The notes beneath the pieces are model-generated. The model worked only from the letters and a program-made list of their open reading frames with translations. It searched no databases and had not been told where the DNA came from. This document shows positions 19,086 through 35,942 of a DNA stretch of 64,000 nt, in pieces. A program made the translations under genes and the position numbers. How positions within the stretch are numbered: position 1 is the first letter of the stretch; each line of letters begins with the position of its first letter. The stretch covers positions 1-64,000 of the forward strand of contig JAEEHB010000044.1 in NCBI GenBank assembly GCA_016280595.1, written 5' to 3'. Origin of the DNA: Clostridiaceae bacterium (lineage in GTDB: Bacteria; Bacillota; Clostridia; Oscillospirales; Acutalibacteraceae).

Positions 19086-19748
19086 ATGAAAAAAATACTC
19101 AAAGAATACTTTACCGGAGCACTTACCGTGCCCAACCTGCTCTCATTTCTGAGAATAGTCATGGTGCCGATTTTCGCGGTGTTGTTTATGAAAGGCGAAT
19201 ACGCCTGGAGCATATTCGTGCTTGCTCTTTCGGGTCTGAGCGATTTCTTTGACGGAAAAATCGCAAGAAGATTCAACCAGGTCAGTGCTCTCGGCAAAAC
19301 CCTTGACCCCATTGCCGACAAACTTACACAGATTACAATCGCCATCGTGCTTTACATCACATTCGCAAAAGCCGAAGACAAACTCGTCAGGGCTTTCAGC
19401 TGGATTTTCCTCGTATTCCTTATCAAGGAAGCAGTGATGGTGGTAGGCGGTGCGATAATGATTGCAATCGGCCTCAAACCCGGCGCCGCCGAAATGCCCG
19501 GCAAGGTGGCAACCTTCGCCTTCTATGTGATTATGATTCTCATAATCGCTTTCGGACCGGAAATCGGAATTTTCAGAAACGTGTTTATGATTCCCGGCGT
19601 ACTTATGATTATACTTATCGCAATCAGCGCGATTTTAACCCTTGTTGCTTTCTGCAGTTATATTCCCGGCGTTGCTCAGCAGCTCAGAGATAAAAAAGCC
19701 GGCAAACTTGACGAAGCGGAAGCAGCGGAAGAAGAGGATGCACAATGA
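19086..19748 (+). CDS. pgsA: CDP-diacylglycerol-glycerol-3-phosphate 3-phosphatidyltransferase
   Basis: A 220-residue membrane enzyme that makes phosphatidylglycerol phosphate, the committed step to anionic phospholipids. The CDP-alcohol phosphotransferase signature DG-x2-AR-x8-G-x3-D-x3-D is fully present at about residues 59-81 (DGKIAR ... GKTLDPIAD). About five membrane helices; acidic C-terminal tail. GGGAGAAATG precedes the ATG. It overlaps the ClpE-like gene by 4 bases. Confidence 0.95.
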   Translation: MKKILKEYFTGALTVPNLLSFLRIVMVPIFAVLFMKGEYAWSIFVLALSGLSDFFDGKIARRFNQVSALGKTLDPIADKLTQITIAIVLYITFAKAEDKLVRAFSWIFLVFLIKEAVMVVGGAIMIAIGLKPGAAEMPGKVATFAFYVIMILIIAFGPEIGIFRNVFMIPGVLMIILIAISAILTLVAFCSYIPGVAQQLRDKKAGKLDEAEAAEEEDAQ

Positions 19749-22027
19749 AACAGGTTCTTTGCTCAAAATGCAAAAAACGCCCTGCGATGTTTTTCATGAC
19801 AAAAGTCGAGGGCGAAAAGGCCACGCAGGAGGGGCTTTGCCTCAAATGCGCCATGGACCTCAACATAGGTCCGATAAAGCAGATTATCCAGTCTATGGGT
19901 ATATCGGAAGATGAATTTGACGAAGTGAGCGAACAGTTCACCGAGATGTTTGAAAACGGAAGTTTCGAACCGGGCGGAGCGGGCACCATGCCCTTTATGC
20001 AGAATTTCAGCGCAATGTCCGGCGCGGGTGATGAAAATCAACCCGAGAGCGGCGAGAAAGAAAAGAAGCGCCGCACCGCAAAGAAAGAAAAAGAAGACTC
20101 CGACAAAAAGAGAAAATACCTTTCTCAGTTCTGCACCGACCTCACCGCAAAGGCGAGAGAGGGCAAAATTGACAGAATTATAGGCAGAGAAAACGAGATT
20201 TACCGCTCCATACAGATTCTGTGCAGGCGCAGTAAAAACAATCCCTGCCTCATAGGCGAGCCGGGCGTGGGCAAAACCGCGATTGCGGAGGGCCTTGCCC
20301 TGCGTATAGCGAGCGGAGATGTGCCTGCCAAAATCGCCGACAAAGAGATACAGATGCTTGATATTGCCGCTCTTGTTGCGGGCACGCAGTTCAGAGGGCA
20401 GTTTGAAAGCCGTATCAAGGGGCTGATTGAGGAGATCAAGGCTCAGGGCAACATCATTCTTTTCATTGACGAGGTGCATCAGCTTGTGGGCGCGGGCGAG
20501 AGCGAAGGCTCAATGAACGCCGCCAACATACTCAAGCCCTCGCTCTCAAGAGGAGAAATCCAGATTATCGGCGCCACCACATTTACCGAATACAGAAAGT
20601 ATATCGAGAAAGACGCCGCCCTTGAGCGCAGACTTCAGCCCGTTACCGTGGAGGAGCCCTCGATTGAGCAGACCGCGGAAATGCTCGCGGGCGTGAAGGG
20701 CTACTATGAGAGTTACCACAAGGTAAGGGTGAACGACTCACTCATACTCAAAGCGGTACAGCTCAGCGAAAGATATATAAACGACAGATTCCTGCCCGAC
20801 AAGGCAATTGACCTGCTCGACGAAGCGTGCACCTGCGCAAACCTCAGAAACAAAAACATAAGTCTGTTTGAGATTGCGCAGAATGAACTTGAGGAACTCA
20901 GGCAGGAGGAAGCCCGCCTTATGGACAGCGAGGCCGAGGGCGAGGCGGATTACGAGGAGATTGCGAAACTCAAGACCGAAATCCTGCAGAAAGAAGAAGA
21001 TGTCAAAAAACTTGAGGAACTCGCAAACGATAACTATGTGACGGAGGAGGACCTCGCGAAGGTTATTCAGCTGTGGACGGGCATCCCCGCGAGCAAGGTT
21101 ATCGAGAGCGACCTGAGACGTCTCAAAGAGATGGAAGCAAACCTCAAGGCACATCTGATAGGCCAGGACGAAGCGGTTGACCTTGTGTGCGCCGCTATCA
21201 GAAGAAACAGAGTGCAGATTAATCCGCGCCGCAGACCCGCGTCATTTATCTTTGTAGGTCCCACGGGCGTAGGCAAAACGGAACTTGTGAAACTGCTCGC
21301 GAAAGAACTGTTTGAAACACCCGAAACGCTTATAAGACTCGATATGAGCGAGTTTATGGAAAAGCATTCCGTTTCAAGAATTATCGGCTCTCCCCCGGGA
21401 TATGTCGGCTATGATGAAGCGGGTCAGCTGACCGAAAAGGTGAGGCGCAAGCCCTACTCAGTGGTGCTGTTTGACGAAATAGAAAAAGCGCATCCGGACG
21501 TGATGAACATACTGCTCCAGATACTCGACGAAGGCAAAATCACCGACGCTCAGGGCAGACACGTAAGTTTTGAAAACACGGTCATCATTATGACCTCCAA
21601 CGCGGGCTCCGACAGAGCGAGCGGCGCTCTCGGCTTCGGCAAAACGAAAAACGAGGCATCAAAAGAGAGAAGTATGAAGGCGCTCACCGAATTCCTCAGA
21701 CCGGAATTTATCGGCAGAGTTGACGAAGTGGTTGTATTCAACGACCTGACCAAAGATGACTATGAAAAAATTGCCGCCCTTCTGCTGGGTGAACTTGTCG
21801 ATCCGCTTGCGGATAAGGGCATCAAATTCACCTGGGACGATAAGGCGACTGCCGCCATCGCGGAACTTTCGGCGGACGGTACAAGGGGCGCGAGAGACCT
21901 GCGCTCCTGCATAAGGAAGAAAGTTGAGGATGTGATTACAGGCAAGATGGTTGAGAGCGTTGACTCCCCCGTCAAGTCCGTATCCGTCACAGCCAAAGGC
22001 AACGAAATAATTTGTAATTTTAAATAA
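19745..22027 (+). CDS. clpE: Clp ATPase, ClpE-like
   Basis: A 760-residue AAA+ unfoldase that would feed ClpP. It begins with a zinc-binding module (CSKC at 6-9 and CLKC near 33-36) instead of the Clp-N repeats found in ClpC/ClpA, the hallmark of ClpE. Two AAA+ domains follow: Walker [10 protein letters not shown] near 170 and GPTGVGKTE near 505. Between them is a coiled-coil middle region rich in Glu/Lys. A poly-basic/acidic linker (about 95-120) separates zinc finger and first AAA+ domain. It overlaps pgsA by 4 bases, so it lacks an obvious own promoter or CtsR-type operator. clpE is the best fit; clpC-like naming is the alternative. Confidence 0.88.
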
Positions 22028-22039
22028 GGAGTAGAGAGT

Positions 22040-24064
22040 ATGGCACGATTTCTGTTTTCCGCATTTGCGGACGAGGCATCCGGCAATATTTCCGAGCAGA
22101 TAGCCGCCTGTAAAAAGAACGGCATCGACTACATTGAGCTGAGAAACTGCGACGGCAAAAACATTTCGGATTTCACCATCGAAGAAGCGAAAGCGCTTAA
22201 GGCAAGGCTTGACGAGGGCGGAATCAAGGTATCTTCAATCGGCTCTCACTACGGCAAGATTGAGATTACAGACGATTTTGCTCCCCACTTTGAGGCGTTC
22301 AAAAACACTGTTGAAGTGGCTAAAATTCTTGATGCGAAATACATCAGGATGTTCAGTTTCTATTTCCTCAACGGCGAGAGTTTTGAAGAATATCACGACG
22401 AGGTTTTCGCGCGTATGAGCGCAATGGTAGACTACGCTAACGAAAACGGCGTGCTCTGCTGCCACGAAAACGAGAGAGGCATCTACGGAGATACTCCCGA
22501 AAGAGCCCTCGAGATAGCGGAATACTTCGGCGACAGAATCGGCAATATTTTCGACCCCGCAAACTATATAATCAACGGCAATCCCACTAAGCCCGGCTTT
22601 GACGCGCTGAAAGACAAAATCACCTATATGCACATAAAAGACGCCATCGCTGCAACTCAGACGGTTGTGCCCGCGGGCGAGGGCGAGGGCGAACTCGAAT
22701 ACATACTCAAAGAACTCGACAAGAAAGACGGCGTGTATTTCCTCTCGGTTGAACCTCACCTTAAGGTGTTTGACGGGCTCAAGTCGCTTGAGGTGAGCGA
22801 TGAACTCGCTCTCAAAATGGATGAGAAGTATTCATACCCCGACAATAACGCGTCTTTTGCCGCCGCCTGCTCGGCAATTCATTCACTGATTGAAAAGAAA
22901 GTGCAGCCTGTAAGGCTCGGCGTTATCGGCACAGGCAATATGGGTTCATCCCATATCAAATCTTATGCCAACGGCTCTCACTCCGGTCTCAGGCTTACAG
23001 CCTGTGCGGACATCGTGCCCGAAAGAGCGGACAAAATGAAAGAGTATGTTCCCGGCATCAAGGTCTTCTACACTGCGGAAGAACTGATTGACAGCGGCGA
23101 AGTTGACGCCGTTATCATAGCCACTCCCCACTATTCGCACTCCCCCATCGCTCAGTACGCTTTTTCAAAAGGCATCCACGTAATGACGGAGAAACCCGCC
23201 GGTGTTTACACAAAGCAGGTAAGAGAAATGAACGAAGCCGCCGCGAAGAGCGGACTTGTGTTCGGCATTATGTATAATCAGCGCACAAACTGCGTTTACA
23301 GGAAACTCAGGGAAATCGTCAGGAGCGGTGAACTCGGCGAAATCAGAAGAGTAAGCTGGATTATCACCGACTGGTACCGCACTCAGGCTTATTATAACAG
23401 CGGCGGATGGCGTGCCACCTGGGCAGGCGAAGGCGGCGGAGTGCTGCTCAACCAGTGCCCGCACAACCTGGACCTGTGGCAGTGGATATGCGGTATGCCC
23501 TGCAAGATAAGAGCGGTTGTTCACGAAGGAAAGTGGCACAATATAGAAGTTGAAGACGATGTTACCATTTACGCCGAGTACCCCAACGGCGCTACCGGCA
23601 CGTTTATCACTTCAACAGGCGACTGCCCCGGCACCAACAGGCTTGAAATCACGCTTGACGGCGGCAAGATTATCTGCGATAACGGCTCAAAACTTTCCCT
23701 CTACCGCCTCAAAGGAAGATTATCCGACCACATTATGAATTCACCCGAAGGTTTCGGCAAACTTGAAGGCGAGTGGGAAGAGGTAGAGACCGACGGCAGA
23801 AACAGACAGCACGTTGAAGTCGTTTCGAAATTCGCATCTGCGATTACAAACGGCACCGAACTCGTTGCACGCGGCGAAGAAGGCATAAACGGACTTAATA
23901 TTTCCAACGCCGCTCACCTTTCATCCTGGCTCGGCAAAGAAATCACCCTGCCGGTTGACGAGGATCTGTATTACTCAATGCTGCAGGAGAAAATCAAGGC
24001 CGGCAACGCGGAAAAAGAAACCGTTACCGGCGCAGTTCAGGGAGATATGTCATCCACATTCTGA
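22040..24064 (+). CDS. fusion: TIM-barrel isomerase/lyase-like domain + Gfo/Idh/MocA dehydrogenase
   Basis: A 674-residue bifunctional chain. Residues 1-260 form a xylose-isomerase-like TIM barrel (AP-endonuclease family 2) with the metal set E143, D172, H198 and E238. Residues from about 291 are a Gfo/Idh/MocA oxidoreductase: nucleotide loop GTGNMG (297-302), EKP motif at 384-386, catalytic HNLD histidine and the C-terminal beta sheet. No frameshift separates the halves and the linker is short. The first half could isomerise or beta-eliminate a keto sugar and the second could oxidise a sugar with NAD(P). Two further redox genes follow at 12- and 4-base distances. Substrate unknown; inositol or 3-oxo-glycoside chemistry are the main ideas. 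Confidence 0.85.
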   Translation: MARFLFSAFADEASGNISEQIAACKKNGIDYIELRNCDGKNISDFTIEEAKALKARLDEGGIKVSSIGSHYGKIEITDDFAPHFEAFKNTVEVAKILDAKYIRMFSFYFLNGESFEEYHDEVFARMSAMVDYANENGVLCCHENERGIYGDTPERALEIAEYFGDRIGNIFDPANYIINGNPTKPGFDALKDKITYMHIKDAIAATQTVVPAGEGEGELEYILKELDKKDGVYFLSVEPHLKVFDGLKSLEVSDELALKMDEKYSYPDNNASFAAACSAIHSLIEKKVQPVRLGVIGTGNMGSSHIKSYANGSHSGLRLTACADIVPERADKMKEYVPGIKVFYTAEELIDSGEVDAVIIATPHYSHSPIAQYAFSKGIHVMTEKPAGVYTKQVREMNEAAAKSGLVFGIMYNQRTNCVYRKLREIVRSGELGEIRRVSWIITDWYRTQAYYNSGGWRATWAGEGGGVLLNQCPHNLDLWQWICGMPCKIRAVVHEGKWHNIEVEDDVTIYAEYPNGATGTFITSTGDCPGTNRLEITLDGGKIICDNGSKLSLYRLKGRLSDHIMNSPEGFGKLEGEWEEVETDGRNRQHVEVVSKFASAITNGTELVARGEEGINGLNISNAAHLSSWLGKEITLPVDEDLYYSMLQEKIKAGNAEKETVTGAVQGDMSSTF

Positions 24065-24076
24065 CGGAGTTGAAAT

Positions 24077-25084
24077 ATGAAAGTTGCTGTTACAGGCTGC
24101 GGTAATGTTTCCGTAAACCATTTTGACGCCCTAGCGGAAATACCGGGCGCCGAGATAGTTGCCGCAGTTGATATAAAACGGGAACGCGCCGAAAAATACG
24201 CAAAGATAACAGGCGCAAAAGCATACACCGATTATGATGAAATGCTCAGAACCGAAAAGCCCGATGTGGTGCATATAGCCACCCCTCACTGGCTCCATAC
24301 GCCTATGGCGGTAAAGGCTCTTGACAGCGGGGCGCACGTTTTTCTCGAAAAACCCTGCTCGGTAACGAGCGAAGAAGCGGATGCCCTCGCAAAAGCGCAG
24401 AGCAGAAGCGGAAAACAGGTTGCAGTCTGTTTTCAGAACCGCTACAACGATTCATCCGTAAAGATGAAAGAATTGATTGAGGGCGGCACTCTCGGCGGCA
24501 TAAAATCAATACGCGCATTCATCACTTGGGACAGAGGCGCGGATTACTATTCCGACGATTGGCACGGCACGCTTGACAAAGAGTGCGGCGGCGTGCTTAT
24601 TAATCAGGCGATACACACGGTTGACCTCATAGGTTTTGTTGCAGGCCCCTGCCGCAGTGTAACCGCGCACGTTTTCAACGATCATCTCAAAAATGTGATT
24701 GAGGTTGAAGACACGGGCTATATGCTTATGGACCTTGAATGCGGAGCCCGCGCTCTGCTGCTCGCGACCACAGCGTTTTCGGAGAATTCACCTGTTATGC
24801 TCGAAGTAAATCTCGATGACGCCATGCTCCGCCTTGAAGGCGAACTTCTTTACAAGATAAGCCGCGACGGGCAGACTGAAATTCTGTGCATCATAAGTAA
24901 CGAAGAATTCAGCGGCAAGAATTACTGGGGTCACGGGCACAAGGCGATAATCCGCGATTTTTATGACTGCCTTGCAACCGGCAGAAAATTTTCAATAGAC
25001 GCTTACGAGGGCGGAAAAGCGCTCAAAACAGTAGTTGCAGCATATAAATCATCCGAAAATAACAGCACGGAGGTAATAATATGA
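24077..25084 (+). CDS. Gfo/Idh/MocA family oxidoreductase
   Basis: A 335-residue NAD(P)-dependent sugar or polyol dehydrogenase. The N-terminal Rossmann fold starts with VTGCGNVS, the EKP motif is in FLEKPCS (about 93-99) and the catalytic histidine in LINQAIHTVDL (about 180). Length is standard. AGTTGAAATATG precedes the start, which lies 12 bases after the fusion gene, and the gene overlaps the SDR gene by 4 bases. The presence of a second Gfo/Idh enzyme next to a fused one suggests oxidation and re-reduction at different sugar positions, but this is inference. Confidence 0.88.
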   Translation: MKVAVTGCGNVSVNHFDALAEIPGAEIVAAVDIKRERAEKYAKITGAKAYTDYDEMLRTEKPDVVHIATPHWLHTPMAVKALDSGAHVFLEKPCSVTSEEADALAKAQSRSGKQVAVCFQNRYNDSSVKMKELIEGGTLGGIKSIRAFITWDRGADYYSDDWHGTLDKECGGVLINQAIHTVDLIGFVAGPCRSVTAHVFNDHLKNVIEVEDTGYMLMDLECGARALLLATTAFSENSPVMLEVNLDDAMLRLEGELLYKISRDGQTEILCIISNEEFSGKNYWGHGHKAIIRDFYDCLATGRKFSIDAYEGGKALKTVVAAYKSSENNSTEVII

Positions 25085-25929
25085 CACACGAAAACTTAAA
25101 AGGCAGAGTAGCGGTAATCACCGGCGGCGGCGGAGTGCTTTGCAGCGGATTTGCGAAAGTGCTCGCAGGTCTCGGAGTCAAGACGGCTGTGCTTGACCTG
25201 AGAGAAGAAGCGGCTGCCGAAGTGGTAAACGAAATCAACGCAAACGGCGGCACGGCAATTGCCGTAGGCTGTAATGTGCTCGAAATGGAAAGCCTTGAAA
25301 AGGCAAGGCAGAAAATCAATGCCGAACTCGGCCCCTGCGATATACTTATAAACGGTGCGGGCGGCAACAACCCCAAGGGCACAACCAGCAAGGATATATT
25401 TGAGGAAGGCGACCTTGAGAATAAGATTGAGGGCGTAAAAACCTTTTTCGACCTCGACCCGAGCGGAATACAGTTTGTATTCAATCTCAATATTCTCGGC
25501 ACACTGCTCACCACACAGTGTTTCGCAAAAGATATGATAGGCAGGCAGAACACCTGCATTATCAACATTTCCTCAATGAACGCCTTCTGCCCGCTCACAA
25601 GAATACCCGCCTACTCGGCGGCAAAAGCGGGTGTGTCAAACTTCACTCAGTGGCTTGCCGTTCATTTTGCCGAGGCGGGCATCAGAGTAAACGCGATTGC
25701 CCCCGGCTTTTTCGCTACAAACCAGAATCATTCGCTCCTCTTCAATGAAGACGGCTCTCTCACTCCCCGCTCCGAGAAGATTATTTCTCACACCCCGATG
25801 CGCCGTTTCGGCGTGCCGGAAGACCTGAGCGGAGCGCTCGCCTTCTTCTGCGATGAAACCTACTCCGGCTTCATCACGGGCGTTATACTGCCGATAGACG
25901 GCGGATTCAACGCTTACTCGGGCGTGTGA
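25081..25929 (+). CDS. SDR oxidoreductase, D-mannonate oxidoreductase-like
   Basis: A 282-residue short-chain dehydrogenase. Cofactor loop TGGGGVLCSG (about 14-23), NGAGG at about 90, and the catalytic Ser-Tyr-Lys set in ISSM and YSAAK. The unusual GGGGVLC loop and the insertion around DIFEEGDLENKIEGV are typical of the SDR-type D-mannonate (fructuronate) oxidoreductases known as UxuB/YjmF in Bacillus. No uxuA or uxaC is in the window, so a broader keto-sugar reductase role is equally possible. GGAGG lies in the end of the preceding gene. Last gene of the 17-gene run. Confidence 0.8.
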   Translation: MTHENLKGRVAVITGGGGVLCSGFAKVLAGLGVKTAVLDLREEAAAEVVNEINANGGTAIAVGCNVLEMESLEKARQKINAELGPCDILINGAGGNNPKGTTSKDIFEEGDLENKIEGVKTFFDLDPSGIQFVFNLNILGTLLTTQCFAKDMIGRQNTCIINISSMNAFCPLTRIPAYSAAKAGVSNFTQWLAVHFAEAGIRVNAIAPGFFATNQNHSLLFNEDGSLTPRSEKIISHTPMRRFGVPEDLSGALAFFCDETYSGFITGVILPIDGGFNAYSGV

Positions 25930-25947: not shown

Positions 25948-25984
25948 AAGGACTGCAGTTAAACCTGCAGTCCTTCTTTTTATG
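25948..25984. terminator. bidirectional terminator
   Basis: AAGGACTGCAG (25948-25958) pairs with CTGCAGTCCTT (25965-25975) around TTAAAC, followed by a T-rich tract on plus and TTTTG on minus. It separates the converging SDR and small membrane protein genes. Confidence 0.88.
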
Positions 25985-26637: not shown

Positions 26638-27912
26638 TTATTTTACCTCCTTTGTGATTATATCCAGAATCTCATCGCTTCTGTAATAACGCGAGGTAGT
26701 GTAAGTTCTGAGTTTGTTGGAGTTGGTTATAACCGCCTTTTTCTTGCACAGGGGGTTGTTCATATACATAAGCGGGCAGATGTAACTGAGAATTACGCCT
26801 GCGTCCTTGAGTTTTTTCGCATAGGGAGTTTTGTTGAACTCTTCGCAAACTGCGGGGGCGGCGGTGAAGACGGTGGGCACGGAAACCTTTGTTCTGCCGT
26901 TCTTTTTGAGAGCCTCTGTCACATTGTCGGTCCACTCTTTGAGCTGTGCCATTGAAAGATGCGGACAGCCGACGAAGCAGAGTTTGGGAGAAGCGTTAAT
27001 ATCTTTCCACATAATCGGGTAGTTATCCTGAACTCTCTGAAGTTCGTCATCGTCAATCACATAGACTTTTGCTCCCTCGGCAACAAGGCTTTCGCCGAGT
27101 TCTTTAGCTTCGGGAGTGAGACCGTCAATGTGATAAAGGCCGACCGCGCCGTTTGATGCCGTAGCTGCGCCGAAGTCCTTGAGATACGCTTTCACATCAT
27201 CGGTAAGTTCAGTGCCGAGCCATTCGCCCATACCTTTGATATAAGGCACATCCTCCATAACCTTCATACCGATTGCGGAGCCGAGAATCTGCGCTTCGGG
27301 TTTCTTTGTGGTTTTTACTTCAATAATCCAGGTCGCTTTTCTGCCCTCGTCGGTAAGCAGACCGAAGTAAGGCACGAAACCTGCGATTGAGCCGAAAAGT
27401 TCAATGATGCCGCTGTTTCTGTTGCAGCGCGCGCCGAGCACGGAGTTTGCGTAAACAACAGCCGAAGACTCCGCCCAGGAGAGGTAATCGCCCTTCTTCG
27501 GAATATTGCCTACCTCGTCCATATAGCAGGTGCAGGTGTAGGAATCGCTGTCAATCAGGCCGAGTTTTGCAAGCTGGCTGTCGTAACTGTCCTGCATAGA
27601 ATACATAAACTTGTTGAAGACCAGTTTTTCAAGGAAATTCGCGGGAACATTGGGGTCGATGGGTTTCGGGTCAACCGAAAACTTCTGCTTTGAAAATGCG
27701 CCGCCCTCGATAAGCTGATCCATAAGGTTATAGACGGGTTTCATAACCTTGAGGCCGAAACTTGTAACGAGGTGACCCTTTGTGCTCGTGACGGGCACCA
27801 TTTTCTCCGCGCCGAATGCATCTCCGTATAGCACAAGAGTCTGCATTACCTTTGCCATTGTTTCGCCTTTGGAGCCGCCGAGTATATCCTGCTGCTCCTG
27901 AGTGAGAGTCAT
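26638..27912 (-). CDS. aconitase X catalytic subunit (DUF521)
   Basis: A 424-residue catalytic subunit of aconitase X, a hydro-lyase with an iron-sulphur centre. The N-terminus LTQEQQDILGGSKGE, the CTCYMDEVGNIP region and the C-terminal CPLMYMNNPLCKK contribute the expected cysteines. Start choice is open: ATG 27912 matches the family N-terminus, but AAAGGA lies too far upstream and would better serve TTG 27924 or GTG 27933. It is followed immediately by the small subunit and preceded by trkH at about 40 bases, so it is part of the phosphoesterase-MFS-trk operon. Confidence 0.87.
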   Translation of the reverse strand: MTLTQEQQDILGGSKGETMAKVMQTLVLYGDAFGAEKMVPVTSTKGHLVTSFGLKVMKPVYNLMDQLIEGGAFSKQKFSVDPKPIDPNVPANFLEKLVFNKFMYSMQDSYDSQLAKLGLIDSDSYTCTCYMDEVGNIPKKGDYLSWAESSAVVYANSVLGARCNRNSGIIELFGSIAGFVPYFGLLTDEGRKATWIIEVKTTKKPEAQILGSAIGMKVMEDVPYIKGMGEWLGTELTDDVKAYLKDFGAATASNGAVGLYHIDGLTPEAKELGESLVAEGAKVYVIDDDELQRVQDNYPIMWKDINASPKLCFVGCPHLSMAQLKEWTDNVTEALKKNGRTKVSVPTVFTAAPAVCEEFNKTPYAKKLKDAGVILSYICPLMYMNNPLCKKKAVITNSNKLRTYTTSRYYRSDEILDIITKEVK

Positions 27913-27951
27913 TTTGTAATCCAAGCAGAACACATCCTTTCAGATTTATTG

Positions 27952-33388: not shown

Positions 33389-33417
33389 TTGTAAAGTGAG
33401 GGTGTGTATGGTAAGAT
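33389..33417 (+). promoter_or_regulatory. probable promoter of the GH30 operon
   Basis: TTGTAA (33389-33394), 17 bases, then TAAGAT (33412-33417), about 50 bases ahead of the glycosidase start. The match is moderate. Confidence 0.45.
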
Positions 33418-33466
33418 AACATTGAGCGGGCAGTTTTTTATTATGCCCGCAGAAGGAATTGTTGAT

Positions 33467-34876
33467 ATGTTAAAATTTATCTGCATAATTCTCTCATTTT
33501 TTCAAGTGGGGCTATTCAATCTCGTATCCCTGGGCAAAACTCAGACAATCGGGGTGAACAGGTATATGGAATATCAGACATCCGAAGGTTTCGGCACCTC
33601 CTCCGCCTGGTGGAGTCAGACAATCAAAGATGAAGAAACGGCGCGTGAAATTGCCCGCCTGCTCTACGATAAGGAAACAGGACTCGGGCTTAATATCTAC
33701 CGCTACAACATAGGCGGCGGAGAGGCGGACAACCCCGACTGCCGTATATGGGATGTAACAAGGCGCACCGAAAGTTTCCTTTACCTTGACGAAAGCGACG
33801 GGCAGTGGAAATACGATTTCACCCGTGACGCAAACGCCGTGAGGATGATGAAACTCGCGGTTGAATACGGTGCGGACGAAGTGGTGCTTTTCTGCAACTC
33901 TCCCCACTATTCAATGACTGCGAGCGGCCACGCGTCCGGCGGGCTCGAAAAGCAGGTGAATAATCTGCCTGAAGAAAACTACCAAGCGTTTGTGGATTAT
34001 GTGCTTACGATTGCCGACCATTTCGTTGAGGAGGGAATCCCGGTAAAATACATCTCCCCCATCAACGAGCCGCAGTGGGACTGGGGCGGAGAATGGGTAG
34101 GGCAGGAAGGCTGTCACTACGATGTTGACGAGTGCATAAAACTGCTTGAACTCTTTGCCGTGACCATGCAGGAAAGAAACTGCCCTTACGGCCTGAGCGG
34201 ACCCGAAAGCGGGCAGCTGACATGGGAACACTACGAGTATGTCGATAAATTCATGCAGAGCGAAATCCTGAGAAACTACTGCGATCACTTCGCCGGTCAC
34301 AGTTACTGGATGGATTATAATTACGACGGCAAAAAAGCCTTCGGCGAAAAGATGAAAAACGAATATCCCGATATGAAATTCGAGATGACGGAATGGTGCG
34401 AACTGCCTCTTGAAATTGACAGCACAACCATTGACAGCGGACTGCGTATGGCAAACATCATCAATCAGGATTTATGCTTTATGGGCGCTTCGTCCTGGTC
34501 GGGCTGGACTGCCGTTAACGGCGACGGCCTTATGGAAATAAAAGACGGGAATCTCGTCATCTACAACCGCTACTACGCATATATGCACTACTCCCGTTTC
34601 ATCGAAAAAGGGATGAAACGCGTTGACGTTATGGACAGCAAAGAATACACCGACATCGCCTCGCTCGCGTATAAGGGTAACGGCAAAACGGTGATAGTGC
34701 TTGTAAACAACGCGCAGGATGACATAAAACTCAATTTCACGGGCGCTTACGGAAAATACGAAGTGTATCAGACCGATGCGTCTCATAACTGTGAAAAGGT
34801 CAAGGAAGGATTATTATTCACGGGAACAACAATTCCCGCAAGAAGCATACAGACAATAACGGTGACAGGAGGATAA
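33467..34876 (+). CDS. glycoside hydrolase family 30 enzyme
   Basis: A 469-residue retaining glycosidase with the (beta/alpha)8 barrel followed by a C-terminal beta domain (about 385-469). The acid/base Glu is E201 in SPINEPQW, and the nucleophile is probably E309 in FEMTEWCE. The WW and GLGLNIYRYNIGGG text near the start is typical of GH30 endo-beta-1,6-galactanase- or xylanase-like members. A hydrophobic N-terminus (about 4-22) acts as signal or anchor, so it works outside the cell. The ATG at 33467 follows AAGGA. A Gfo/Idh dehydrogenase follows after 4 bases, suggesting that the released sugar is oxidised next. Confidence 0.85.
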   Translation: MLKFICIILSFFQVGLFNLVSLGKTQTIGVNRYMEYQTSEGFGTSSAWWSQTIKDEETAREIARLLYDKETGLGLNIYRYNIGGGEADNPDCRIWDVTRRTESFLYLDESDGQWKYDFTRDANAVRMMKLAVEYGADEVVLFCNSPHYSMTASGHASGGLEKQVNNLPEENYQAFVDYVLTIADHFVEEGIPVKYISPINEPQWDWGGEWVGQEGCHYDVDECIKLLELFAVTMQERNCPYGLSGPESGQLTWEHYEYVDKFMQSEILRNYCDHFAGHSYWMDYNYDGKKAFGEKMKNEYPDMKFEMTEWCELPLEIDSTTIDSGLRMANIINQDLCFMGASSWSGWTAVNGDGLMEIKDGNLVIYNRYYAYMHYSRFIEKGMKRVDVMDSKEYTDIASLAYKGNGKTVIVLVNNAQDDIKLNFTGAYGKYEVYQTDASHNCEKVKEGLLFTGTTIPARSIQTITVTGG

Positions 34877-34880
34877 AAAA

Positions 34881-35942
34881 ATGGCGGAAAAATACAGAGT
34901 AGGTTTAATCGGCTGCGGCGGAATAGCAAAAGGCGCGCACATCCCCTCTTACAAACTCGAAAGCAGAGCCGAAATAGTCGCGGTATGCGATATCAAAAAG
35001 GAAAGAGCGGAATTTGTGAGAAAAGCATTTTTCAGAAACGCCGCCGTGTATGAAGACTACAAAGAACTGCTCAAAGACGAGAGCATTGATTATGTTGACA
35101 TCTGCACCCCCAACTATATGCACTCGATTATCGCTGTTGACGCGCTCAACGCGGGCAAGCACGTGCTCTGCGAAAAGCCCGACGCGATAAATGTTGAAGA
35201 GGCTCTCAAAATGAAAGAGGCCGCCGAGAGAAACGGCAAAAAACTGATGGTAATCAGAAACAACCGCTATATGGACACCTCCAAAAAAGTCAAGGAAATG
35301 GCAGACAGCGGTTTCTTCGGTGAGTTTTATGCGGGACGCTGCGGCTGGATAAGACGCAGGGGCATACCCGGCAAAGGCGGCTGGTTTACCACCAAGGCGC
35401 AGTCCGGCGGCGGACCGCTGATTGACCTCGGAGTGCATATGATAGACCTCGCAATCTGGTTTATGGGCAACCCGAAACCCGTTGCGGTTACGGGCAACAC
35501 CTTTTCAAAATTTGCCGATGCCGAAGAAATGGACTCCCCCGAATCAAAATTCGGTGATAAGGTTGAGGGCGGCACATTTGATGTTGAGGACCTTGCGATA
35601 GGCGCAATCAGGTTTGAAAACGGCGCGGTGCTGCAGATTGAGTTTTCCTGGGCATCCAACATAAAGAAGGAAACAAGGTTTGTTGAACTCAGAGGCGACA
35701 AGGGCGGCCTGAGCTGGAACGGCGGCAAAGCGGAAGTTTACTATGAGAAAGACGGCAAACAGAAGAACGAAAAAATCAAGGGCAACCCCGCGAAACTGCC
35801 CCACAGAGTAAACATAGGCCACTTTATAGATGTGCTCGGCGGAGCGAAACCCGTATTCGTGCCAGAGCAGGGAATTGATATGATTAAGATTCTCTGCGCT
35901 ATGTATGAATCTGCCGAAACGGGCAAAGAAGTACTGCTCTGA
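34881..35942 (+). CDS. Gfo/Idh/MocA family oxidoreductase
   Basis: A 353-residue NAD(P)-dependent dehydrogenase: nucleotide loop GCGGIAKGAH (about 10-19), CEKPDA at about 96-101, and catalytic histidine in DLGVHMIDLA (about 180). Basic RRRG and TKA segments follow the Rossmann domain. It is expressed with GH30 (4-base gap) and precedes an RluA-type gene by 3 bases. It is the third Gfo/Idh domain in the window and probably acts on a sugar or sugar-lactone derived from the glycosidase product, which is inference. Confidence 0.87.
   Translation: MAEKYRVGLIGCGGIAKGAHIPSYKLESRAEIVAVCDIKKERAEFVRKAFFRNAAVYEDYKELLKDESIDYVDICTPNYMHSIIAVDALNAGKHVLCEKPDAINVEEALKMKEAAERNGKKLMVIRNNRYMDTSKKVKEMADSGFFGEFYAGRCGWIRRRGIPGKGGWFTTKAQSGGGPLIDLGVHMIDLAIWFMGNPKPVAVTGNTFSKFADAEEMDSPESKFGDKVEGGTFDVEDLAIGAIRFENGAVLQIEFSWASNIKKETRFVELRGDKGGLSWNGGKAEVYYEKDGKQKNEKIKGNPAKLPHRVNIGHFIDVLGGAKPVFVPEQGIDMIKILCAMYESAETGKEVLL

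Follow-up and report, generated by a model that had tools for sequence, protein, structure and literature searches.

The window analysed here is a 64,000-nucleotide stretch of DNA from a Clostridiaceae bacterium of the Acutalibacteraceae (GCA_016280595.1, contig JAEEHB010000044.1, positions 1-64,000, forward strand), and the gene of interest, at 22040-24064, starts with ATG and encodes 674 amino acids in a single stop-free frame. An earlier note on this DNA had read the frame as a TIM barrel joined to a Gfo/Idh dehydrogenase in one chain, and the open reading frame (ORF), the Pfam assignments, the 42 fused proteins among 80 relatives and conservation across the genus all bear this out. The gene and its two halves are as follows.

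22040..24064, plus strand: fused gene, TIM-barrel metalloenzyme plus glucuronide 3-dehydrogenase-like Gfo/Idh (ORF, Pfam, genus-wide conservation)
22040..22903, plus strand: N-terminal half, residues 1-288, AP_endonuc_2 barrel (Pfam, residue counts, model)
22904..24061, plus strand: C-terminal half, residues 289-674, Gfo/Idh/MocA dehydrogenase (8tdi match, Foldseek)

Pfam assigns three domains to the fused protein, all above the curated cut-offs: AP_endonuc_2 at residues 21-238 (E 3.8e-25), GFO_IDH_MocA at 292-409 (E 1.1e-20) and GFO_IDH_MocA_C3 at 420-544 (E 2.2e-27), with the oxidoreductase complete over residues 292-632. In the predicted model of the full chain (mean pLDDT 91.9, pTM 0.89; 92.4 and 0.89 for the barrel modelled alone), the last barrel helix occupies residues 269-288 and leads directly into a Rossmann strand at 291-296, two residues on, so that no linker has been added between the halves. 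The earlier note was therefore right about the barrel itself but ended it too early, at residue 260, whereas it extends to about residue 288. The high pTM suggests that the two domains are held in a single fixed arrangement.

Conservation and history of the fusion

A scan of a genome collection matched at least 591 stretches, 574 of which encode a relative, and the best 80 were kept and classed as fused (42), split (26) or dehydrogenase alone (12). In the split class the barrel gene immediately precedes the dehydrogenase gene in the same orientation, with a gap of 3-144 nt and start codons chosen by hand; barrel and dehydrogenase are fused or adjacent in 68 of these best 80 loci. Because the query contained both halves, and so favours fused or adjacent loci, these shares do not amount to a census. 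Within the genus, the window's own genome included, 43 of 45 genomes have a match to the fused protein at E<=1e-60, 40 of these matches span residues 1-674 without an internal stop, and a match is present in all 15 genomes of at least 90% completeness and at most 5% contamination. The single-frame relatives (42 of 80) and the genus-wide matches together rule out a chance or assembly-artefact fusion. At class level, in an even sample of 391 genomes (E<=1e-40, at most 3 candidates scored per genome), 129 genomes match; among the matches listed, an uninterrupted full-length match occurs only in the window's own genome and in G098, and in at least 16 other genomes the two halves lie in line but are parted by stop codons and so form separate genes.

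The tree built on both halves concatenated has 68 rows, 41 of them fused; it omits L117, L118 and L119, whose dehydrogenases copy those of L049, L068 and L052, and L086, L073, L027 and L036, which are partial. On this tree the fused state requires 3 changes. A constraint that groups all 41 fused rows is rejected by the approximately unbiased (AU) test (p 0.0004), while one that groups the 40 without L116 (genome G098), which sits on a long branch, is not (p 0.26), so the simplest account of these sequences has the same two neighbouring genes fusing at least twice. As regards the count of changes, a single fusion with later splits would also fit. In a quick tree of the dehydrogenases, 12 stand-alone rows fall within the main fused group, which suggests that these lost their barrel later. 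The stand-alone dehydrogenases of L075-L085 and L088 are about 66% identical to the fused one, are nested in the fused clade and are without the hexuronate genes sought; L075 has a ParB gene about 5 kb upstream and the gene of a Listeria-Bacteroides repeat protein directly downstream.

The dehydrogenase and barrel halves

The solved structure nearest to the C-terminal half is 8tdi, entered in the PDB as 'P2B11 Glucuronide-3-dehydrogenase' (E 3.4e-106), and the next PDB chain follows at 5.2e-26. In the same sequence search DgpA reaches 3.2e-17 and inositol dehydrogenase about 4e-17. Foldseek also places 8tdi first (E 2.3e-41), followed by WlbA, which was solved with the uronic acid UDP-GlcNAcA. 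None of the NCBIfam models reaches its curated cut-off for this half, IolG scoring 96.1 of 355 bits and levoglucosan dehydrogenase (LGDH) 54.3 of 650 bits. By sequence, then, the C-terminal half is placed in the P2B11 (8tdi) subfamily, clearly separate from other Gfo/Idh proteins, and LgdA, DgpA and IolG, which the earlier note had offered as analogues, are not its nearest relatives. 8tdi itself reportedly belongs to a stepwise glycoside-cleaving pathway described by Nasseri et al. (Nature 2024), and locus L114 contains a second P2B11-like gene. The cofactor and catalytic motifs read earlier are all in place: GTGNMG at residues 297-302, EKP at 384-386 and the conserved His as the last residue of N471-Q-C-P-H475, with G297, G299, G302, K385 and H475 each conserved in 97% or more of 88 rows, 8tdi included. 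Both the fused protein and 8tdi have Asn at position 471 of the fused protein, where the Gfo/Idh motif usually starts with Asp.

In the N-terminal half, the proposed metal ligands E143, D172, H198 and E238 are each present in all 75 aligned barrel rows (three of which copy other rows and three of which are partial), as are K200, E145 and H240 and the N144 of E143-N144-E145. Judged by motif and order rather than by superposition, E143/D172/H198/K200/E238 would be the E/D/H/K/E metal residues of C-glycoside lyase alpha subunits, which in AgCGD2 are Glu147, Asp179, His269, Lys271 and Glu305, next to an acting pair of His149 and Glu307 (PMC8563793). E145 and H240 of the fused barrel stand at the positions of this pair, with His and Glu transposed. 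AtOGE carries the motif His132-x-His134, and its H134A variant is without activity (PMC10628242); this His, two residues past the first metal ligand in AtOGE and in the C-glycoside lyases, is absent from the fused barrel, which has Glu145 there in all 75 rows. A profile search with the fused barrel returned 18 PDB chains at E<=1, among them Art22, AsbF (a probable 3-dehydroshikimate dehydratase, E 3e-11), MJ1311 and IolI, and neither 8bvk (AtOGE) nor any C-glycoside-lyase chain was among these 18. The hydratase AtHYD (8ro4), which acts on 2-hydroxy-3-keto-glucal, matches weakly (E 0.03 with the single sequence, 0.0055 with the profile), below AsbF, Art22, MJ1311, IolI and others. On this evidence the fused barrel is of a branch other than the AtOGE family.

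Operon context and the proposed pathway

The fused gene is followed after a 12-nt gap by a second Gfo/Idh gene, GFO2, which overlaps the gene of a UxuB-type SDR by 4 nt. The features around it are listed below.

19745..22027, plus strand: Clp-type ATPase gene, 12 nt upstream of the fused gene (ORF list)
22028-22031, plus strand: GGAG, Shine-Dalgarno-like, right behind the stop of the Clp gene (read in the sequence)
24077..25084, plus strand: GFO2, second Gfo/Idh, 335 aa, candidate 3-keto-glucuronate reductase (Pfam/NCBIfam; downstream in 26 of 42 fused loci)
25081..25929, plus strand: SDR of the D-mannonate oxidoreductase (UxuB-type) family (NF006132, 433.7 bits against a cut-off of 281)
25948..25975, plus strand: terminator-like stem of 11 pairs with a T tail, 3' of the three genes (consensus scan only)

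A promoter scan likewise gave consensus matches only. The N-terminus of the Clp-type ATPase has a Cys-rich stretch that presumably resembles a McsA-type zinc finger, and at L009-L013 a gene of 757-766 aa occupies the position upstream of the fused gene. Elsewhere in the window, an Aconitase X (AcnX) gene lies on the minus strand at 26638-27933 (Pfam E 7.2e-96), and at 33404-35942 a gene that weakly resembles the XynC glucuronoxylanase (42 of 650 bits) precedes a third Gfo/Idh gene, for which NCBIfam's best model is levoglucosan dehydrogenase (126 of 650 bits). A PADLOC search for an anti-phage defence role returned no match.

Neighbouring genes were counted in the available flanks, some of which are cut by contig ends, using score thresholds that we set ourselves. 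Besides GFO2, the 42 fused loci have UxuB in 27 cases, UxuA in 8, a PfkB kinase resembling 2-keto-3-deoxygluconate (KDG) kinase in 6 and 2-keto-3-deoxy-6-phosphogluconate (KDPG) aldolase in 5, and at L029 the order runs fused gene, GFO2, UxuA, UxuB, glycosyltransferase, PfkB kinase, KDPG aldolase. UxaC lies next to an FGGY kinase in the window's own genome, and of the 19 genomes of the genus in the sample searched, 18 have UxaC. In the window's own lineage, therefore, the operon would be one of glucuronate catabolism, in agreement with the dehydrogenase's relative; more distant members, where the hexuronate neighbourhood fades, may have a different substrate. No GH67 domain was found in the 20 genomes searched, the window's own included.

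The barrel of a further kind that accompanies these genes in sister operons is informative about the division of labour. At L115 (G171), whose dehydrogenase is 66% identical to 8tdi, one strand carries MFS_2, a first barrel (38% identical to the fused barrel), the dehydrogenase, a GFO2 homologue (34%) and a second barrel, and the opposite strand carries UxaC, UxuA, UxuB and HAD, so that the two gene sets converge. At L116 the order is fused gene, barrel 2, GFO2, UxuA, UxuB. The best PDB match of barrel 2 is 8bvk (E 8.2e-24 for L116, 7.9e-18 for L115), which according to its own paper is AtOGE, and barrel 2 carries AtOGE's HNH motif; we assign it, by these matches, to the AtOGE eliminase family. 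The window's own genome has a homologue of barrel 2 on another contig (G000:C43:292-1062, minus strand; 36% identical to that of L116, HNH present), starting 3 nt behind a GPH-symporter-type gene, and a homologue is present in 13 of the 15 more complete genus genomes. In two genomes of the genus, G002 and G033, a homologue lies next to a GH35 gene and an additional copy of the dehydrogenase, an arrangement that links barrel 2 to the same chemistry and leaves its joint action with the fused protein unproven.

At L124:3972-7723 and L125:5727-9474, in two genus genomes, three consecutive genes encode a GH35 protein, an AtOGE-like barrel and an additional dehydrogenase copy (57%) that is not fused. 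Directly upstream of the AtOGE-like barrel gene, the minus-strand gene at L108:1066-3414 encodes 782 residues with a GPH/MFS_2 match that is over the Pfam cut-off and scores 69 of 231 bits in NCBIfam, the protein being far longer than the 437-position model. On contigs C20, C32 and C21 of the window's own genome (L105, L106 and L107), three further Gfo/Idh genes lie unfused near AP_endonuc_2 barrels, so the organism has several such sets.

Together these observations lead us to propose that glucuronides are probably cleaved by oxidation, elimination, hydration and reduction, and we give about even weight to the view that the fused protein is a bifunctional enzyme of such a stepwise, non-hydrolytic pathway. 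Its C-terminal half would very probably oxidise C3 of a glucuronide with NAD+ to the 3-keto-glucuronide. Beta-elimination of the glycosidic bond may then fall mainly to the separate AtOGE-like barrel at G000:C43:292-1062, or may be partly non-enzymatic. The fused barrel, with its E143/D172/H198/E238 metal site and invariant E145 and H240, would hydrate the resulting 2-hydroxy-3-keto enone to 3-keto-glucuronate, which GFO2, or the fused dehydrogenase itself, could reduce to glucuronate, restoring NAD+. UxaC and the UxuB-type reductase would take glucuronate into the hexuronate pathway. With hydratase and dehydrogenase in one chain, the last keto product would be coupled to the NADH of the first step, which would pull an unfavourable oxidation forward. 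The earlier note's expectation that a Gfo/Idh protein is physically joined to a partner from an oxidation, elimination, hydration and reduction scheme agrees with the occurrence of the same two genes, adjacent, in many relatives.

A number of observations weigh against this proposal. The glucuronide activity of 8tdi is taken from its PDB entry name, and the hydratase assignment was reached by exclusion together with weak profile matches. For the barrel, Foldseek ranks 3-epimerases (UlaE, tagatose 3-epimerase) over AsbF, and the best NCBIfam model is L-ribulose-5-phosphate 3-epimerase, far under its cut-off. The neighbourhood is uneven: GFO2, UxuA and UxuB are all lacking from 11 of the 42 fused loci, and although the sequence ends within 300 nt downstream at two of these (L018, L073), the other nine (L025, L038, L040, L043, L044, L056, L039, L042 and L045) have 2.4 to 6 kb downstream and still none, with L039, L042 and L045 carrying a different kind of AP_endonuc_2 barrel in place of the hexuronate genes. 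GFO2 occurs in 8 of the 26 split loci and UxuA or UxuB in only 2, and the 12 dehydrogenase-only loci have none of the three. UxuA was not found in the window's own genome and is over its cut-off in 18 of 45 genus genomes, which leaves a gap in the route below mannonate that a different mannonate dehydratase may fill. The own genome has 4 matches to GH2 domains, so the fused route need not be the sole source of free glucuronate, as ordinary glucuronidases may also be present. Finally, none of the 42 fused loci has the AtOGE-like barrel in its flanks, compared with 7 of 26 among the split loci; L116, which represents a separate fusion, does carry it. Of the 45 genus genomes, 28 have a homologue of this barrel and 43 a match to the fused protein; 13 of the 28 homologues are at least 60% identical and 15, at 40-45%, are possible paralogues. 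As to UxuA, 26 of the 45 genus genomes give no match, including the 100% complete G042, which has UxaC and a UxuB-type gene beside its fused gene (L127).

The counts for the AtOGE-like barrel bear on what the fused barrel does. Since barrel 2 is unlinked, within the available flanks, in all 42 fused loci and present in fewer genus genomes than the fused protein, the fused barrel may also eliminate, and a possible though clearly less probable reading is that it is a beta-eliminase on glucuronides, alone or as a combined eliminase and hydratase, with the unstable 3-keto-glucuronide passed between the two sites. In keeping with this, no other partner accompanies the dehydrogenase as constantly as the barrel does (fused or adjacent in the 68 of 80 loci, in a scan that favoured such loci) and its metal set matches the AgCGD2 ligands (PMC8563793). 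Bifunctional lyases of the same fold exist, as LgdB2 (PMC7676230) and a lyase from Bacteroides whose H275N variant is deficient in hydration (PMC13273386) illustrate, so the fused barrel could do both steps. Against it stand the AtOGE-family membership of the other barrel, which is present in sister operons and has a homologue on another contig here, and Glu145 in place of the His of AtOGE and the C-glycoside lyases. For these reasons an eliminase role for the fused barrel is doubtful, and this barrel is unlikely to be a beta-eliminase of the AtOGE type; with barrel 2 a relative of AtOGE and the fused barrel another branch, exclusion leaves a hydratase or a bifunctional lyase, of which the hydratase is our first choice. 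In a bolder version, which we consider rather improbable, one chain would carry out a near-complete, redox-neutral hydrolysis of glucuronides: the barrel would eliminate and hydrate through the transposed Glu145/His240, and the dehydrogenase would oxidise the substrate and then reduce 3-keto-glucuronate on the same bound NAD(H), and fusion of the same neighbouring genes would have produced, at least twice, a modular counterpart of the GH4-type NAD-dependent glycosidases.

That the barrel is an epimerase or keto-isomerase of a 3-keto uronic acid, which would yield an isomerised uronate without glycoside cleavage, is suggested by its best Foldseek matches, L-xylulose-5-phosphate 3-epimerase and other 3-epimerases, and by 3-epimerases as its best NCBIfam models. 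We consider it quite unlikely, because the fold does not discriminate the reaction (the 50 listed Foldseek matches, mostly epimerases and isomerases, all have TM about 0.7) and because L115 and L116 link a P2B11-type dehydrogenase with a second Gfo/Idh and an AtOGE-like barrel, as in the four-step pathways (PMC10628242, PMC7676230). It is most improbable that the protein is an inositol or levoglucosan pair of the IolE/IolG or LgdA/LgdB1 kind whose genes became joined through a chance gene order. The NCBIfam matches of the dehydrogenase half do include IolG and levoglucosan dehydrogenase, but both are far under their cut-offs, 8tdi is far ahead of inositol dehydrogenase, and several typed neighbours are hexuronate genes; profile scores and neighbours together led us to reject this assignment.

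Significance and comparison with known systems

Non-hydrolytic glycoside cleavage via 3-keto sugars has been recognised only recently, and how unstable intermediates are handled and NAD(H) is balanced are open questions. A fusion that is present across a genus and has probably arisen at least twice indicates which two steps gain most from tethering, and the single-chain protein offers a test object for channelling and cofactor recycling. A further implication is that the gut bacteria of ruminants and other animals (hosts as given in record titles) have a glucuronide route that is not annotated as such, and the fusion marks a barrel subfamily with HENE and EPHL motifs whose reaction is yet to be assigned. 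No well-described fused family of known substrate turned up in Pfam, NCBIfam or the literature searched, which does not include Nasseri 2024, and that literature, key subscription papers lying outside it, yielded no report of the barrel-dehydrogenase fusion, its genus-wide presence or its repeated origin. While the kind of pathway is known, a natural single-chain fusion, its genus-wide presence and its probable repeated origin appear, from the literature searched, to be the new part.

The closest known protein is P2B11 (8tdi), of the same subfamily as the C-terminal half (47% identity over 390 aligned positions); the 66%-identical dehydrogenase of L115 adjoins homologues of barrel 1 and GFO2 as well as hexuronate genes. 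The solved chain, however, has 405 residues and no barrel, and at L115 the partners are separate genes with the AtOGE-like barrel linked. The A. tumefaciens operon of GlycDH, AtOGE, AtHYD and Gfo shares the logic of oxidation, elimination, hydration and reduction in four steps with two barrels and a Gfo/Idh, the second barrel hydrating, but it acts on glucosides, uses a flavoenzyme for the first oxidation and consists of separate proteins (PMC10628242); the similarity of AtOGE is to barrel 2, which is unfused, rather than to the fused barrel. In the levoglucosan pathway of LgdA, LgdB1, LgdB2 and LgdC, oxidation by a Gfo/Idh is likewise followed by a barrel eliminase, a separate barrel hydratase and reduction by a dehydrogenase, whereas there are four separate proteins, the substrate is another and the dehydrogenase half is only distantly similar (PMC7676230). 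The C-glycoside lyases DgpB/DgpC, PuCGD and AgCGD2 have a TIM barrel with the same E/D/H/K/E metal site (PMC8563793), and the partner Gfo/Idh DgpA recycles its NADH on 3-oxo-glucose (PMC11239390). They differ from the fused protein in being heteromeric with a beta-subunit and in having His two residues past the first ligand and Glu two residues past the last, the reverse of E145 and H240 in the fused barrel (PMC8563793).

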